Assembly (NCBI GenBank): GCA_002356455.1
Contig: AP017968.1
Location: forward strand, 496,001 to 560,000
Source: Fusobacterium varium
GTDB lineage: Bacteria; Fusobacteriota; Fusobacteriia; Fusobacteriales; Fusobacteriaceae
DNA length: 64,000 nucleotides
Reading direction: 5' to 3'
Shown here in pieces: positions 26,329 to 34,712 of this stretch. The notes beneath the pieces are model-generated. The model saw only the letters and a list, made by a program, of their open reading frames with translations, searched no databases and had not been told where the DNA came from. The translations under genes and the position numbers were made by a program. How positions within the stretch are numbered: the stretch's first letter is position 1; each line of letters opens with the position of its first letter.

Positions 26329-26733
26329 ATGTGCTTAGAAGAAAATACTAAAATATTCATGGCTGATGGATCACAGAAACCTATTAAGGAAATAAGAATA
26401 GGAGATATGATAATGTGTGATTCAGGAGAACCTAAAATAGTGAGAAATGTATGGCAGGGAAGGGAAGAACATATGATGTGTATAGAACTGAAAAATGGTT
26501 CAAAAATTATACTTACAGAAAACCACCCTGTAAAAACTATATTTGGAATGAAAAAAGCAAGTGAAATAAATGAAGATGATGAGATATTAACAACTTATGG
26601 GGATAAATCTAAAATTGCTTCAATAAGTTGTATTGAATACAATGGAAGGGTTTATAATTTAGATATTTCTGGAAATTTTATGATGGCTGAAGGTATAGCT
26701 GTTGGAGATTTTGAAGTACAAAATAGAAGATAG
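26329..26733 (+). CDS. Stand-alone Hint (hedgehog/intein) domain protein
   Basis: 134 residues forming only a Hint domain. The catalytic cysteine of block A is residue 2, directly after the initiator methionine (M-C-L-E-E-N-T-K-I-F-M-A-D-G). Block B is T63-E-N-H66, with the T-x-x-H that activates the first splice bond. The last block (G-R-V-Y-N-L-D-I near 106) is present but the terminal His-Asn pair of true inteins is missing, the end reading A-V-G-D-F-E-V-Q-N. With no N-terminal extein and no His-Asn, splicing is not possible. Removal of Met1 would expose Cys2 as an N-terminal thiol. ATG 26329 follows ATGGAGGATGATGTGTA. Function unknown. Confidence 0.82.
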   Translation: MCLEENTKIFMADGSQKPIKEIRIGDMIMCDSGEPKIVRNVWQGREEHMMCIELKNGSKIILTENHPVKTIFGMKKASEINEDDEILTTYGDKSKIASISCIEYNGRVYNLDISGNFMMAEGIAVGDFEVQNRR

Positions 26734-27264: not shown

Positions 27265-27589
27265 AATTATAACTCTCCTTTTTTCATTTTATTTTTTCTG
27301 CTAATAGAATTATAAAACATTTTATTTTGAAAATCAAGATATTTTTAAATAAAATAATTTTAAAAAAGAAATAAAAATTAATTCAAGGAATGACTAGAAC
27401 TAAAAGCTAATAAATAAAATTATGAATGATAAATTGTAGAAAAATTTTTAAAAGGATTGTAGAGTATATTATATGTAAAAAAAAATAAAAAGATGTAAAG
27501 AAAGGGAAAAGTCTTAAAATTTAAAATACTTTTTAGTAAAAAATGTTATAATAAAAAAAGAAAATAAGATTTATAAGGATTGGTGGAAA
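27265..27589. other. Divergent intergenic region
   Basis: Apart from the flavodoxin promoter, the 325 bases are very AT-rich. A TATAAT-like box near 27546 probably belongs to the sensor gene, but no clear -35 partner or repeat was seen. No gene is evident. Confidence 0.4.
27309..27337 (-). promoter_or_regulatory. Promoter of the flavodoxin gene
   Basis: On the minus strand TTGATT (27332-27337) and TATAAT (27309-27314) have a 17-base spacer, about 45 bases upstream of the start codon. Confidence 0.7.
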
Positions 27590-29170
27590 ATGAAAATAAT
27601 AGAAATAGTAAAAAAGAATCATGTATCTGAGATAATACTGATAATATTTTTTCTTTTTTTATCATTTATATGTTTAAATTTTATAGGAGATATACCTTTA
27701 AAAGAAAAATTTACAGATTATTCAAGAATATCAGATTTGATACAGCTTTTAAAAATAGAAGTGGTAACTGAAAATATAAATATGTCTCTTGTTTATGCGT
27801 ATAAGAGATATATTATATTATTTTTAGGAAGCGGATATTTAACATATTTGATACTTCTTACTATACTTTTTCATAAAACTTGTAAAGAGAGCATACTATA
27901 TATTGGTTCTCTTTATTTTTCTTTTGCAATAGGAACAGAAATTCTAAGTTATGTACTTCCATTTGATAATTGTAAAGTATTTCTTACTATTTTGAGCTGG
28001 ATATTTGTATTTTGTGGATATATAAGATTTATAAAATATTTTTGGGAATTACTTTTTAATAAACAATCAAAAATAATAGATATAATTAATCTTGTTCTTA
28101 TTGTTGCAACAGTTTTCCCTCTTTCGCTTGCCATTAAAGAATTTCATACTATATATTTTACAGAAGACTTTATGAGTCCGACTTTAGGATTACAAATATT
28201 TTTTGATTATTTTAAAAATGGGTTTATTGTTATAATAATGATATTCAGCTTTATTTCAATTTTTTATAATAAAAATAAAAACAAAAAAAAAGAATCTCTT
28301 TATTATTTTATACTTTTTTCAATTCAGCTTTTATGCAGTATATATATTTACAATGAACTGAATTTATATGGAAATTTTGAATTTATGGCTCATTTTATGC
28401 TTAACATACTTTTTGTTCATGTGCAGCTTGAAGATATCAAACTTACAACAGATAATCAGTTTTTTAGAACTATAAATTTTAATGTAACAAGGATATTAAT
28501 AACCTTTATAACTATAAGTTACTTTATAAAGAAAAATATACTTACAGGATATGTTACTGGAATGCTTGCAATAATCATATCTGTAGAAATTATTTCTTTT
28601 GTTTTTTTATTTTTTTCAGAACAGGAAGAAGTGAACTTTGATAATTTTTTAAATAAATTGAAAGGAATTGAATCCTTAAATGAATTTTATATTTTTCTCG
28701 AGGATGGATATACAAAAATATTTAGGCTTATAGAATTTAAAATGGCAGTATTTGATCTTGACTTTGATTCTAGTAAATATGAAGATGAGCCACTAATAAC
28801 TTTTTCTCCAATTTTTGAAGGGAAAAAATATGATGTGAGGATAAAAATACAAAATAGAAATAAACTTTTAGGTTTTATTTATATAAAAGACCCTCGTATG
28901 CTGTTATATAGGAGAAAACTTAAAAATTTAAAAAAACTTACTTTAGAAACAGCTCCTGTAATTGAAAATCTTTTGCTTAAAAATCTTCAGATACATCATT
29001 ATAAAAAAATAGAAAAAGAACTTAATAAAAAAATAGAAGTTTTGGAAAAAGATTTATTTTATATAAAAGAATTAGCTGGTCTTATAGAAAAAGTTGATGA
29101 TAGGAAAAAAATTGAAATACTAGGGATAATAAGAGCAAAACTGACTGGAGACAGCGGAGGTGAAAAATAA
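27590..29170 (+). CDS. Multi-pass membrane sensor-like protein with GAF-like C-terminus
   Basis: 526 residues, not assigned to a named family. A short cytoplasmic N-terminus leads into about eight or nine hydrophobic segments between residues 12 and 345. One helix pair flanks a non-membrane loop at 40-70. The cytoplasmic C-terminal part (about 350-470) looks like a GAF or similar sensor fold. A coiled coil (about 470-515) ends the protein. No histidine-kinase H-box, ATPase domain or GGDEF is present, so it is not a standard kinase. Its stop overlaps the ATG of the LytTR gene by one base, so it very probably signals to that regulator by direct contact. Confidence 0.65.
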   Translation: MKIIEIVKKNHVSEIILIIFFLFLSFICLNFIGDIPLKEKFTDYSRISDLIQLLKIEVVTENINMSLVYAYKRYIILFLGSGYLTYLILLTILFHKTCKESILYIGSLYFSFAIGTEILSYVLPFDNCKVFLTILSWIFVFCGYIRFIKYFWELLFNKQSKIIDIINLVLIVATVFPLSLAIKEFHTIYFTEDFMSPTLGLQIFFDYFKNGFIVIIMIFSFISIFYNKNKNKKKESLYYFILFSIQLLCSIYIYNELNLYGNFEFMAHFMLNILFVHVQLEDIKLTTDNQFFRTINFNVTRILITFITISYFIKKNILTGYVTGMLAIIISVEIISFVFLFFSEQEEVNFDNFLNKLKGIESLNEFYIFLEDGYTKIFRLIEFKMAVFDLDFDSSKYEDEPLITFSPIFEGKKYDVRIKIQNRNKLLGFIYIKDPRMLLYRRKLKNLKKLTLETAPVIENLLLKNLQIHHYKKIEKELNKKIEVLEKDLFYIKELAGLIEKVDDRKKIEILGIIRAKLTGDSGGEK

Positions 29171-29829
29171 TGAAATTTCTATTTTATGGAGATGATTTGT
29201 TTTTTTACCTTTTAAAAGAAACCTTTACTTTTGATATTGAAAGAGTAGAAAATTTTGAGATATGTTTTATAGAAGAGAGTATTCTTATAACTGATAATAA
29301 TATTTTTAATATTGAAAATATGTCTTTTGATAATCTAAAGAAAATATATATTTATTCTGACAGAGTAGAAACAAAATTCTTGAAGAGATATAGTGATTTT
29401 ATAAATAAAATGTCTTTTCATGGAAGAGATGAATATATATTCTTTGAGAAATTTTTTACAGAAAAATTAGACAAAGTAAAATTAAATAAGCGTAATAAGG
29501 TTATATTGTCTGATAGTTTTAAAGATGTAATAATTCCTATGGAAGATATTGAATATTTTTCATATGACAGGAATCAGAAAAAATCTTTTGCTATTGTTGA
29601 TGGAAATTCATATTTTCTAAAAAAATCTTTAACAGAAATTGAAAAATTTATGGAAGATTCAGATTTTATAAGAATTGAGAGGGGAATAATTCTCAATATA
29701 AAGAAGATAAAGGAGATAGATTACAAGGAAGAATATGTAATGACAAATAGTGGACAGAAAATATATTTAGGAAGAAGCATATTGAAAAAAATAAGTGAAA
29801 ATTATTTTGAAGATTTTTATAGATTGTAA
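29170..29829 (+). CDS. LytTR-domain DNA-binding regulator without a standard receiver domain
   Basis: 219 residues. The C-terminal half (about 105-219) is a LytTR DNA-binding domain: I-P-M-E-D-I-E-Y-F near residue 120, the K-S-L-T-E-I-E-K-F-M helix, and F-I-R-I-E-R-G-I-I-L-N-I-K-K-I near 165. The N-terminal 100 residues have no aspartate-containing receiver signature and do not resemble CheY-like domains; they may bind the partner membrane protein. Start ATG 29170 overlaps the stop of that partner (TAATG), giving translational coupling. Its targets are probably local, such as the PLP-enzyme operon that starts 137 bases downstream. Confidence 0.8.
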   Translation: MKFLFYGDDLFFYLLKETFTFDIERVENFEICFIEESILITDNNIFNIENMSFDNLKKIYIYSDRVETKFLKRYSDFINKMSFHGRDEYIFFEKFFTEKLDKVKLNKRNKVILSDSFKDVIIPMEDIEYFSYDRNQKKSFAIVDGNSYFLKKSLTEIEKFMEDSDFIRIERGIILNIKKIKEIDYKEEYVMTNSGQKIYLGRSILKKISENYFEDFYRL

Positions 29830-29966
29830 TAAAAAATAAATTTCGAGGAAAAAAATAAAGTTTTGGGGAAATAAATAGTTGTTTTTGTTCTTTTTTAATA
29901 TTATTGGACTTAAATTGATATATAATTATTTCAAAGGTAAATAAAAGTATCATGGGAGATGGTTAT

Positions 29967-31130
29967 ATGTCTATAAAAGAAATGGAATTAGAAACAAAAC
30001 TAGCTCATGGATGTCATACTCCAGACAGTGAAACAAGATCACTCACTTCACCTATATATCAGACAGCAACATATGGAGCTGTCACTCAGGAACATTTTGA
30101 AGATCTGTGTTATAACTGGGGACATGTATATGCCAGAGAATCAAATCCTACAACTGATGAACTTGCAAGAACTCTTGCTTTAATAGAAGGATGTGAAACT
30201 GGAGTTGTAACTTCTTCAGGAATGGGAGCAGTAACTTCTATGTTTTTCAGTCAGGTAAAAAGTGGAGATCATATAATTTGTGCAAATGGAATGTTTTCTC
30301 ATACAACACTTTTTGTAAAAGAATGTCTTATGAATTTTGGAGTAGAAGCAGATTTTGTAGATGCTACAGATTATAAGAATGTAGAAAGATGTTTGAAGCC
30401 CAATACAAAAATAGTATATGTAGAATCACCTTTAAACCCTTCATTGAGATTAGTAGATATAGAAAAAATTGCCAATTTAAAAGAAAAACAAGATTTTATA
30501 TTTGTAGTTGATTCTACATTTGCACCAAATCCTATACAATATCCAACAAAGCTAGGAGCAGATCTTGTAATTCATAGTCTTACGAAATTTCTTAATGGAC
30601 ATGGAGATGCAATAGGAGGAGCAGTTCTTGGAAAAAGAGAACTTATCCATAAAATAAAATGGCCTTCAATGCCTTGCTTTACAGGAGCATGCCTTGCACC
30701 TATGACAGCATGGCTTATTCTTAGGGGAGTAAGAACACTTGATATGAGAGTGGAAAGACATTGTAAAAATGCTTTGGCGATAGCTGAATTTTTAGAAAGT
30801 CATCCTCTTATTGAAAATGTAAATTATCCAGGATTAAAATCTAGTCCAGATTATGAATTATGTCAGAAACAAATGAATGGAATGGGCGGTGGAATGCTTT
30901 CATTCACTTTGAAAAAAACAGGAACTGAAGAAGAAAGAGTTGCTATGACAAAAAGATTTATAAATAAAGTAAAATTAATTACAATAGCTACTAGCCTTGG
31001 GGAAGGACACACTCTTATATCTTTATATGATGGTGGACTTGTAAGAATAGCAGTAGGACTGGAAAAAGATACTGATCTTATAGCGGACTTAAGGAATGCA
31101 TTGAATGAAATAAATGAAGGGGAGAGATAA
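29967..31130 (+). CDS. Trans-sulfuration-family PLP enzyme (methionine gamma-lyase/cystathionine synthase-like)
   Basis: 387 residues from ATG 29967, chosen because GGGAG lies 8 bases upstream; ATG 29952 precedes that site. The PLP lysine is K207 in S-L-T-K-F-L-N-G-H-G-D, and Y-A-R-E-S-N-P-T (55-62) gives the phosphate contacts. Two oddities stand out. The usual catalytic tyrosine of L-Y-G-G/C-T is phenylalanine (F110, M-F-S-H-T). The segment near the C-terminus that normally reads H-P-A-S-M-T-H is absent, leaving S-L-G-E-G-H-T-L-I-S. Substrate specificity is therefore uncertain. A 2-oxoacid product fits the ferredoxin oxidoreductase downstream. Confidence 0.82.
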   Translation: MSIKEMELETKLAHGCHTPDSETRSLTSPIYQTATYGAVTQEHFEDLCYNWGHVYARESNPTTDELARTLALIEGCETGVVTSSGMGAVTSMFFSQVKSGDHIICANGMFSHTTLFVKECLMNFGVEADFVDATDYKNVERCLKPNTKIVYVESPLNPSLRLVDIEKIANLKEKQDFIFVVDSTFAPNPIQYPTKLGADLVIHSLTKFLNGHGDAIGGAVLGKRELIHKIKWPSMPCFTGACLAPMTAWLILRGVRTLDMRVERHCKNALAIAEFLESHPLIENVNYPGLKSSPDYELCQKQMNGMGGGMLSFTLKKTGTEEERVAMTKRFINKVKLITIATSLGEGHTLISLYDGGLVRIAVGLEKDTDLIADLRNALNEINEGER

Positions 31131-31132
31131 TT

Positions 31133-32371
31133 ATGAATGATAGATTTAAAAAATTTATGATAGTATTTATGATTGGATTTGCAACTACAGCTATGTATAG
31201 TCTACCTTATATGAAATCAGTATTTTATGATCCAATGAGAGAGGCTTTAAGCTTAAATCATAAACAATTGGGAAATTTATTAAGTATATATGGGATAGTA
31301 GCAACAGTTTCTTACTTTCCAGGAGGATGGCTTGCAGATAAGTATTCAGCTAAAAAACTTGTTTCTTTTTCATTGATATCAACTGGAATTTTAGGTATGT
31401 GGATGGCAATGGCACCAAGTTATCCTATTCTTTGTATGATTTTTCTTTTATTTGGAATAACTACTATTCTTACATATTTTGCTGCAATAATTAAAGTAAT
31501 AAGAATGTTGGGGGATAGTTCAGAACAGGGAAGATTATTTGGACTTTATGAAGGATTTGGAGGAGTAGCTGGAACTGTACTTTCATTTGGAGGATTATAT
31601 TTTTTCTCAAAATTTGAGAATATAGTGGAAGGATTTAAAGCTGCAACTATAATGTATTCAGTTTGTTCAATGGTATGTGGAGTAATTCTATTTATGGTGA
31701 TAAAAGAAAAAGAAGTAGAGAAAAAAGAGCAGGTGAAATTTACAAGTTTAATACAAGCTGTAAAAATGCCAAAAGCATGGTTGATAAGTGCAATTATTTT
31801 CTCTGCATATATGGTATTCTCGAGTCTTACTTATCTTAATCCATACATGACAGAAATATTTAAGATGTCTATGGCATTGGTTTCATTTGTTGCTATCTGC
31901 AGAACATACGTTATTAAATTTATAGCTTCTCCATTAGCAGGAGTAATAGCAGATAAAATAGGTTCATCAACAAAATGTCTTTTTGGAGGATTTATTTTAG
32001 TAACAATAACACAAGCAGTATTCCTAATCACACCAGGAAATCCATCATTAGTTTATGTAGCTCTTGTAAATATGCTTGTTCTTACAATACTGATGTTTGC
32101 TTTTAGAGGTATTTATTTTGCAACAGTAGATGAATCTAATATTCCTATCAATGTAACAGGAATAGTAGTAGGATTTGTATCAGTTATCGGATTCCTTCCA
32201 GATGCTTTCTATTATACATTAGTTGGAAGCTGGTTAGATAAATATGGAAATACAGCTTATAAATATGTTTTTTCACTTTCTTTAGCTTGCAGCATTTTAG
32301 GGATAATTGCATCTTATGCACTATTAAGAATAGTAAGTAGAGAGAAAAAGGAAGAAATTATAAACCAATAG
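31133..32371 (+). CDS. MFS transporter
   Basis: 412 residues, 12 predicted membrane helices. The loop 2-3 motif of the major facilitator family appears as G-G-W-L-A-D-K-Y-S-A-K-K near residue 63, and a second copy after helix 8 reads G-V-I-A-D-K-I-G. Substrate unknown. The start lies only 2 bases after the stop of the PLP-enzyme gene, so the two are one transcription unit. A natural guess is uptake of the amino acid degraded by that enzyme or export of its product. Confidence 0.88.
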   Translation: MNDRFKKFMIVFMIGFATTAMYSLPYMKSVFYDPMREALSLNHKQLGNLLSIYGIVATVSYFPGGWLADKYSAKKLVSFSLISTGILGMWMAMAPSYPILCMIFLLFGITTILTYFAAIIKVIRMLGDSSEQGRLFGLYEGFGGVAGTVLSFGGLYFFSKFENIVEGFKAATIMYSVCSMVCGVILFMVIKEKEVEKKEQVKFTSLIQAVKMPKAWLISAIIFSAYMVFSSLTYLNPYMTEIFKMSMALVSFVAICRTYVIKFIASPLAGVIADKIGSSTKCLFGGFILVTITQAVFLITPGNPSLVYVALVNMLVLTILMFAFRGIYFATVDESNIPINVTGIVVGFVSVIGFLPDAFYYTLVGSWLDKYGNTAYKYVFSLSLACSILGIIASYALLRIVSREKKEEIINQ

Positions 32372-32410: not shown

Positions 32411-33982
32411 ATGGAGTTTTTAGAGTATATTTTAAAAATACATAGAGAAATCTTCTTCTTTTCCTGTGAACACATATTCTTGTCTTTTATGTCTATTATA
32501 ATGGCAGTAATTATAGGAATACCAACAGGAATAATAATAACTTATTATGGAAAAGCGAGAAAAACAATACTTGGAGCAATAAATATCATACAAGCAGTAC
32601 CAAGTATGGCTCTTTTTGGGTTTTTAATTCCAATCATTGGGATAGGAAAACTTCCAGCAATAATAATTGTTGTTCTTTATTCACTTCTTCCAATAGTTAA
32701 AAATACATATATAGGATTAGATGGAATAAATCCTCTTACTATTGAGGCTGCAGAAGGAATAGGAATGACAAAATATCAAATACTGCAGAAAGTTCAACTT
32801 CCACTGGCTTTGCCAGTAATAATGGGAGGAGTAAGAATAGCAGTAGTAACATCTGTAGGGCTTATGACAATAGCTGCTTTTGTAGGAGCTGGAGGATTGG
32901 GCTATCTCGTATTTTCTGGAATAAGGACAATAAATAATTATCAGATATTAGCAGGAGCTATACCAGCCTGTATATTGGCTCTATTGATAGATTATCTTAC
33001 TGGAGTTTTAGAAAAGGCTGTTATTCCCACTGGGATACAGCTAAATAAGAAAAGATCTATTTTTAATAATAGAAAAAAGAAAAGAATACTGGCCTTAACA
33101 ATGTTTGCTGGAATCTTTTTTACAGTAATTTTTTCTGGAATGGTAACTATGTATAAACCTAGAAGTGAAAAAGTTATTGTTATGGGAAGTAAGGAATTTA
33201 CAGAGGGAGAAATACTGGCAAATATAATGGCTATAATGATAGAGAAAAAAACAGATATATCTATAGACAGAAGATTTGCTCTTGGAGGAACACAAATATG
33301 TTTCAATGCTCTAAAGAGCAATGAAATAGATATGTATGTTGATTATACAGGAACTGTATATGGAGATACCTTAAAATATCCACCTATTCAAGATATGGAA
33401 AAAGTATATGACACAGTGAAAAAAGATATGAAGGAAAAATATAATATAGAGGTTTTACAGCAGCTTGGGTTTAATAATACTTATGCTCTGGCTGTGAGAA
33501 GGGATACTGCTGAAAAGTATAATTTGAAAACAATAAGTGATTTAGAAAAAATAGCAAAAAATCTTACTTTATCAGCAAGTCTTGAATTTCTTAATCGAGA
33601 AGATTGTTATATAGGATTAAGTAAAAAATATAAATTAGATTTTAGAAAAGTAATAGGTATAGATGGAAGTTCCAAATATCTTGCTTTAACAAATAAAGAG
33701 AGTGATGTTATAGATGTATATACTACAGATGCTCTTCTTCAAAAACTTGATTTAGTTGTATTGGAAGATGATAGACATTTCTTTCCACCATACTATGCTG
33801 TCCCTCTTGTAAGAGATAAAACAATAGAAAAATATCCAGAAATAGTTCCAATAATAGAGGAATTGCAAAATGTATTAAATGATAAAGTCATATCTTCTCT
33901 TAATTATAAAGTAGAAAATCTTGGAAAGAAACCAAATGAAGCAGCACTGGAATTTATAGAGGAATATAAACTTTTGAAATAG
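32411..33982 (+). CDS. Fused permease/substrate-binding protein of OpuB/OpuC-type ABC transporter
   Basis: 523 residues made of two parts. Residues 1-215 are an ABC permease with five or six helices and the E-A-A-E-G-I-G-M-T coupling motif near 115. After a linker and one more hydrophobic segment (about 225-245), residues 255-523 form an OpuAC-type binding protein beginning V-M-G-S-K-E-F-T-E-G-E-I-L and containing V-D-Y-T-G-T. Such fusions import quaternary amines like glycine betaine, choline or carnitine. ATG 32411 follows AAAAAGGAGGGGAAAATT. The ATPase gene follows 13 bases downstream. Confidence 0.9.
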   Translation: MEFLEYILKIHREIFFFSCEHIFLSFMSIIMAVIIGIPTGIIITYYGKARKTILGAINIIQAVPSMALFGFLIPIIGIGKLPAIIIVVLYSLLPIVKNTYIGLDGINPLTIEAAEGIGMTKYQILQKVQLPLALPVIMGGVRIAVVTSVGLMTIAAFVGAGGLGYLVFSGIRTINNYQILAGAIPACILALLIDYLTGVLEKAVIPTGIQLNKKRSIFNNRKKKRILALTMFAGIFFTVIFSGMVTMYKPRSEKVIVMGSKEFTEGEILANIMAIMIEKKTDISIDRRFALGGTQICFNALKSNEIDMYVDYTGTVYGDTLKYPPIQDMEKVYDTVKKDMKEKYNIEVLQQLGFNNTYALAVRRDTAEKYNLKTISDLEKIAKNLTLSASLEFLNREDCYIGLSKKYKLDFRKVIGIDGSSKYLALTNKESDVIDVYTTDALLQKLDLVVLEDDRHFFPPYYAVPLVRDKTIEKYPEIVPIIEELQNVLNDKVISSLNYKVENLGKKPNEAALEFIEEYKLLK

Positions 33983-33995
33983 GAAGGGATATAAA

Positions 33996-34712
33996 ATGAT
34001 AGAATTTGTTGATGTAAACAAAAATTTTGGAGAATATCATATAATAAAAAACCTTTCTTTAAAGATAGAAAAAGGTAAAATTACAGTGATAATAGGTTCT
34101 AGTGGTTGTGGAAAGACTACAACTTTGAAAATGATAAATAAGCTTATTCTTCCTACTTCAGGAAAAATATATATAGATGGAGAAGATATTTCTCAAAAAG
34201 ATACTATTAAACTAAGAAGAAATATAGGATATGTTATACAGCAAACTGGACTTTTTCCACATATGACTGTAAAAGAAAATATAGAACTTATTGCTAAAAT
34301 AGAAAATATAGATAAAAATAAAATAAATCTGAGAACGAAAGAGCTTATGAAAATGATAAATCTTGATTATGCAACATTTTCCGAGAGATATCCTTTAGAA
34401 CTTAGTGGAGGGCAACAACAGAGAGTGGGAGTAGCTAGAGCTTTTGCTCTTGATCCGGGAATAATACTCATGGATGAGCCTTTTAGTGCTGTTGACCCAA
34501 TAAGCAGGAAGCAACTGCAGGATGAATTGATAGATATTCAAAAAAAACTTGAGAAGACAATTGTTTTTGTAACCCATGATATTCAAGAAGCAATAAAAAT
34601 AGCTGATAAAATATGCCTTATGAATAATGGAGAGATAATGCAGTATGATACTCCTGAAAATATTATTAAAAATCCTAAAAATGATTTTATTAGAGAATTT
34701 ATAAATATTTAA
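33996..34712 (+). CDS. ABC transporter ATP-binding protein (OpuA/OpuC-type)
   Basis: 238 residues with Walker A G-S-S-G-C-G-K-T-T near 33, signature L-S-G-G-Q-Q-Q-R near 137, Walker B I-I-L-M-D-E-P near 155 and the switch histidine in F-V-T-H-D. It lacks the C-terminal CBS pair of OpuCA proteins, so ionic-strength sensing of that type is not expected. It powers the fused permease/binding protein encoded just upstream. Together they form a two-gene osmoprotectant-type importer. Confidence 0.92.
   Translation: MIEFVDVNKNFGEYHIIKNLSLKIEKGKITVIIGSSGCGKTTTLKMINKLILPTSGKIYIDGEDISQKDTIKLRRNIGYVIQQTGLFPHMTVKENIELIAKIENIDKNKINLRTKELMKMINLDYATFSERYPLELSGGQQQRVGVARAFALDPGIILMDEPFSAVDPISRKQLQDELIDIQKKLEKTIVFVTHDIQEAIKIADKICLMNNGEIMQYDTPENIIKNPKNDFIREFINI

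Follow-up and report, generated by a model that had tools for sequence, protein, structure and literature searches.

The analysed DNA, hereafter called the window, is a stretch of 64,000 nucleotides from the 4.1-Mb genome of Fusobacterium varium (GenBank contig AP017968.1, positions 496,001 to 560,000). Two neighboring genes of the window, here named S and R, encode a membrane sensor-like protein and a LytTR regulator, respectively, and are followed by genes for a PLP-dependent lyase and an MFS transporter. The two open reading frames and their one-base overlap, which had been reported in a preliminary description of this DNA, were both confirmed by the sequence. The features of the locus are presented in Table 1.

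Table 1. Features of the S-R locus; positions are those of the window.
Feature	Position	Strand	Basis or remark
Candidate extended -10 element of the S-R operon, TGTTATAAT	27544..27552	+	Upstream alignment; kept in four Fusobacterium species
S, membrane sensor-like protein, 526 aa	27590..29170	+	ORF; hydropathy, positive-inside loops, domain scans
S membrane region, residues ~12-342	27623..28615	+	Hydropathy; family alignment
S cytoplasmic GAF-like domain, residues ~345-465	28622..28984	+	hhalign vs GAF_2 domains
S C-terminal helical/coiled-coil extension, residues 466-526	28985..29167	+	AlphaFold2 helix; family alignment
Ribosome-binding site for R, GGAGGTGA, strong, within the end of S	29156..29163	+	Sequence
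TAATG, coupling the stop of S to the start of R, one base in common	29168..29172	+	Sequence
R, LytTR regulator, 219 aa	29170..29829	+	ORF; Pfam LytTR 8e-15
R degenerate receiver (pseudo-receiver), residues 1-106	29170..29487	+	hhalign; column counts; strand ends in low-confidence model
R LytTR DNA-binding domain, residues 120-210	29527..29799	+	Pfam; Foldseek
Candidate R operator, direct repeat TTTCGAGGA-N11-TTTTGGGGA	29841..29869	+	LytTR-like spacing; in the 122-bp gap after R
Candidate -10 element (TATAAT) of the PLP operon	29921..29926	+	Kept as far as Propionigenium maris
PLP-dependent Cys/Met-metabolism lyase, probable target	29952..31130	+	Pfam Cys_Met_Meta_PP 9.6e-107; true start probably 29967
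MFS transporter, probable target	31133..32371	+	Pfam MFS_1 3.1e-29

An autoregulatory repeat ahead of S was considered and rejected, since no LytTR-type direct repeat (at least 7 of 9 matches, 3 G/C) was found upstream of the S-R operon at 27265-27589. Farther upstream, at 26329-26733, the window encodes a free-standing Hint/intein-like protein of 134 aa (Pfam Hom_end_hint 5e-11, Intein_splicing 1e-8), which has no visible extein and is kept beside the S-R pair in three congeners.

Domain architecture of S and R

S is predicted to span the membrane with about 10 helices in an N-in/C-in topology, as judged from the mean hydropathy of 36 relatives and from positive-inside loops, the segments being counted by eye. 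No Pfam match was obtained for S at E<=1, no NCBIfam family above chance and no significant match in a PDB search, and the protein therefore represents an annotation gap in the two family databases. Neither S nor any of the 15 S-family members scanned contains a kinase or ATPase domain; the same scan, as a positive control, recognized 5TM-5TMR_LYT, His_kinase and HATPase_c in the canonical LytS of the genome. The earlier account of a many-helix membrane protein without a kinase is hence borne out. Many S relatives carry, after the first transmembrane helix, an extracytoplasmic Ig/transthyretin-like insert of ~90 aa, which gives a weak CarboxypepD_reg-type match in one of them and is missing from the subfamily of the window S.

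The cytoplasmic region of S aligned with the GAF_2 domains of related genomes over its last 38 columns (hhalign P=0.0017; best of 60 column shuffles, 0.16). It was undetectable when compared with the GAF domain of LytS alone and had no PDB match, and its GAF-like identity is regarded as moderately supported. The C-terminal extension was modelled as a helix with an AlphaFold2 pLDDT of 65-78, whereas the model of S overall, computed from a two-row alignment, reached a pLDDT of 38. In the family alignment the coiled coil is present in a part of the relatives only, most of them stopping right after the GAF-like domain. Of the GAF-like region and coiled coil originally proposed for S, the former can thus be kept as a moderate assignment; the latter is predicted for the window protein but does not extend to most of the family. 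In congener G001 (L058:4480-4720) an A tract in the coiled-coil part of the sensor gene lacks one base, which is likely a sequencing error because the adjoining genes are broken too. An ancestry of S in LytS was also considered and rejected, as neither the membrane part nor the GAF part has detectable similarity to LytS.

The LytTR DNA-binding domain attributed to the second gene was recovered by Pfam and, moreover, by Foldseek, which matched it to the LytTR domain of AgrA (E 2e-8) and also to full-length ComE; it is present in all 16 R-family members scanned. The N-terminal half of R has no Pfam match. However, a family profile of this half, built from 42 sequences, aligned with 23 receivers of the same genome with an hhalign P of 1.1e-4 (controls: best of 60 shuffles, 0.02; reversed, 0.03-0.05). 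Additionally, a profile search of the PDB gave weak matches that included the receivers 3lua and 6sy9, and the strand ends in a low-confidence fold model (E37-41, E58-62 and E82-85) are consistent with receiver topology.

In the alignment, D42 of R falls on the phospho-Asp column, which holds Asp in 36 of the 42 relatives and has lost it in the other 6. The Lys column is always basic, with Arg in 28/42 and Lys in 14/42, and is R86 in the window protein. The T/S column is mostly Leu, Val or Cys in the relatives (S63 in the window R), and the acidic pair is partial across the family, with D8/D9 as the candidate pair here. Because it is a divergent receiver with D42, a Lys-to-Arg change and a mostly lost Ser/Thr, the N-terminal domain is considered a pseudo-receiver, which in a 2025 review is defined by the absence of any of the five residues (PMC12632262), and not a new domain devoid of the aspartate. 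The original statement that R has no receiver aspartate was therefore incorrect. It is important to mention that the window R has lost fewer receiver positions than most of its relatives, and that the Lys-to-Arg change is compatible with a loss of normal phosphotransfer without proving it.

Recurrence and co-inheritance of the pair

Profile searches covered the Fusobacteriota, with 98 genomes for S and 61 genomes of the family for R, and 44 adjacent S-R pairs were found. The membrane gene precedes the regulator gene in 44/44 pairs, the search having been made for a sensor upstream of R, and among the 45 family R genes none was left with S only downstream. The distance from the end of S to the start of R is -35 to +15 bases in nearly all pairs; a copy with a frameshift and a disrupted locus are the exceptions. 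Directly behind S lie 42 of the 45 R genes (41 by match coordinates, and that of genome G066 by its open reading frames). Canonical LytTR response regulators score at about 1e-8 with the R profile, and nearly all pair members lie beyond 1e-30.

The trees of S and R have 22 of 31 splits in common; of the 24 well-supported splits in the S tree, 21 are also present in the R tree and a single conflict, a marginal one, was seen. The comparison gave no sign of partner swapping between paralogues. The pairing of sensor and regulator put forward in the preliminary description is strongly supported by its conservation, by the gene overlap seen in almost every pair and by the agreement of the trees, and, judging from these sequence comparisons, S-R is a recurrent Fusobacteriota module inherited as a unit. 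Co-evolution was compared at the level of domains only, owing to the number of pairs, which is too low for inter-residue analysis. The partial correlation of distance matrices between the S GAF-like domain and the R pseudo-receiver was 0.37-0.54 depending on the transform, about level with the links within each protein; the rank version places TM-GAF and NTD-LytTR slightly higher, and TM-LytTR is equally strong in the linear and Poisson versions. This correlation would fit a contact between the two domains and is no proof of it.

A narrow scan of genome contigs yielded Propionigenium maris only, no S match was found on plasmids and no R relative on viral contigs. Two long-frame matches to fused S-R proteins (L027 and L030) were rejected as chance. 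The genome of the window has two further S-R pairs, L042 (G000:C1, ~43 kb) and L043 (~1.797 Mb), which lack the coiled coil and lie beside unrelated genes.

The remaining three of the 45 R relatives have no S and are all located near ExbB-ExbD-TonB genes. Two of them (L115:3223-6118 and L116:1167-4054) show an 8-base overlap with a flavodoxin gene that ends the ExbB-ExbD-TonB operon, and the third (L117) is divergent, next to such genes and near a 741-aa protein, possibly a TonB receptor. This S-less branch suggests a different input.

The adjacent PLP-MFS operon and a candidate operator

An orthologue of the PLP lyase (E<1e-100) is present in 5 of the 61 genomes, and these are exactly the five with an orthologous S-R pair. 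The order S-R-PLP-MFS is retained in P. maris, at 60-62% identity. After the MFS gene, the window encodes a glycine-betaine-type ABC transporter at 32411-34712 (a permease fused to an OpuAC binding domain, and an ATPase); the P. maris gene in this place differs and encodes a protein of 436 aa, rhodanese-like by eye.

When fewer than 2 mismatches were allowed, the direct repeat at 29841-29869 was the sole match in the genome. As read by eye, related repeats occur in the same place in three congeners, and a version with a 12-bp spacing in P. maris. Since 28 of 1000 shuffles equal the score of the bare repeat, it is retained as a candidate only. The nominal -35 element of the PLP operon follows it at a distance of ~28 bp; in the LytTR Regulatory Systems of Streptococcus mutans the repeat lies 4-11 bp from the -35 element (PMC6193735). 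An excess of direct repeats beside all S-R pairs was also considered, and was set aside as too weak, with 5 regions against 2 expected, the loci orthologous to the window included. The co-occurrence of the PLP gene, the gene order in P. maris and the candidate repeat support the earlier suggestion that the pair controls the adjacent operon.

A proposed contact-based mechanism and its alternatives

LytS/LytTR two-component systems such as BtsSR and YpdAB, and L044 of the same genome (G000:C1:3693541-3695928), have in common with S-R a membrane region, a GAF domain, for which S has a GAF-like region, and a partner with receiver and LytTR domains. In contrast to them, S lacks His_kinase and HATPase_c and has no detectable homology to LytS. 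In terms of predicted domains, S-R thus has the LytS/LytTR architecture minus catalysis. We propose a stoichiometric S-R complex on the grounds that the receptor has no kinase, that the regulator inherited along with it carries a pseudo-receiver, and that the start/stop coupling would favor equal amounts of S and R. We consider it somewhat probable that S controls R by direct contact without phosphotransfer and so switches the PLP/MFS operon. S would sense a ligand or the state of the membrane through its helices and pass the signal to the cytoplasmic GAF-like domain, which, in the window protein together with the coiled coil, would bind the pseudo-receiver of R. Depending on the signal, S would hold or release R, or set its dimerization state, by contact instead of phosphotransfer, and free or activated R would bind the direct repeat that closely follows the R gene and switch the operon. 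By analogy with LytTR Regulatory Systems, from which alone the direction is taken, S is preferred as an inhibitor of R over an activator.

The phosphate-free signalling suggested at the outset agrees with the missing kinase and the change of K to R, but profile comparison revealed a hidden divergent receiver, which the same description had named as a finding that would refute it. In the window R, D8/D9, D42 and S63 could form 4 of the 5 receiver positions, which counts against the proposed mechanism, as do the dependence of the domain correlation on the transform, the distance of the repeat from the -35 element, greater than in LytTR Regulatory Systems, the frequency of such a repeat in shuffles, and the three R relatives without S. 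R could still be phosphorylated by another kinase or by acetyl phosphate. That R is phosphorylated on D42 in one of these ways, S being only a modulator, is unlikely in our view: the aspartate and serine columns, the possible acidic pair and the many other receiver-type systems of the genome would permit it, whereas the replaced lysine, the T/S position mostly lost and the aspartate sometimes lost in relatives, and a co-inherited S without kinase in every member scanned argue against it.

S-R is also close to the LytTR Regulatory Systems HdrRM and BrsRM of S. mutans, two-gene systems of a kinase-less membrane protein and a LytTR regulator, often with adjoining transporter genes (PMC6193735). 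In these, however, the regulator gene is upstream, whereas S-R has the membrane gene first; S, with its predicted helices and GAF-like domain, is far larger; their regulators lack the receiver domain that R carries in degenerate form; and, just ahead of the -35 element of their operon, they have direct repeats with a spacing of 11-13 bp, whereas none was found ahead of the S-R operon, whose candidate lies downstream. Moreover, S has no DUF3021/DUF2154 match. It is thus very unlikely that S-R is a true member of this type, in which S would act solely as a membrane inhibitor and the operon would regulate itself, despite the coupled kinase-less protein and the transporter gene nearby. By analogy, S-R may work like these systems, but it differs from them in gene order and repeats, two features that define them, and its regulator additionally contains a receiver-like domain. 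The Bacteroides "LRS-like" operons do have the membrane gene first, but their regulator is membrane-anchored (PMC6193735), and fusobacteria are not mentioned in the main text of that paper.

Slightly less probable still is that S is merely co-transcribed, a transport-like or structural protein next to an R that is constitutive or ligand-regulated alone, as its many helices and the three S-less relatives by ExbBD-TonB genes (two overlapping a flavodoxin gene) might suggest. Apart from these relatives the pairing is strict, and it argues against this reading together with the gene overlap and the matching trees, across many unrelated gene neighbourhoods.

7TMR-DISM receptors combine a multi-TM region with varied intracellular domains. 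S resembles them in its multi-TM region, and some relatives in their extracytoplasmic beta domain, but it has no 7TMR-DISM Pfam match and its output is a separate protein. Among the titles and abstracts on LytTR and Fusobacterium, no system of the S-R kind was described.

The 2025 review, which does not mention LytTR, states that the mechanisms by which bacterial pseudo-receivers are switched "remain a mystery" (PMC12632262). The atypical response regulators with pseudo-receivers in one section of it lack an identified partner, work via different protein contacts or belong to normal kinase systems. In contrast to those examples, R has in S an evident partner, a membrane protein that lacks a kinase and is inherited together with it, with more than 40 natural pairs and a likely target operon adjoining. 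We tentatively propose, at rather less confidence than for the single pair, a fusobacterial signalling class, spread across the lineage, whose multi-TM GAF-like receptor, devoid of a kinase, would switch a pseudo-receiver LytTR regulator purely by contact, phosphotransfer having given way to allostery. Since S and R are passed on together in many fusobacteria, they can be used to test how degenerate-receiver regulators are switched, a question that becomes directly testable in one organism and through partner swaps between paralogues.
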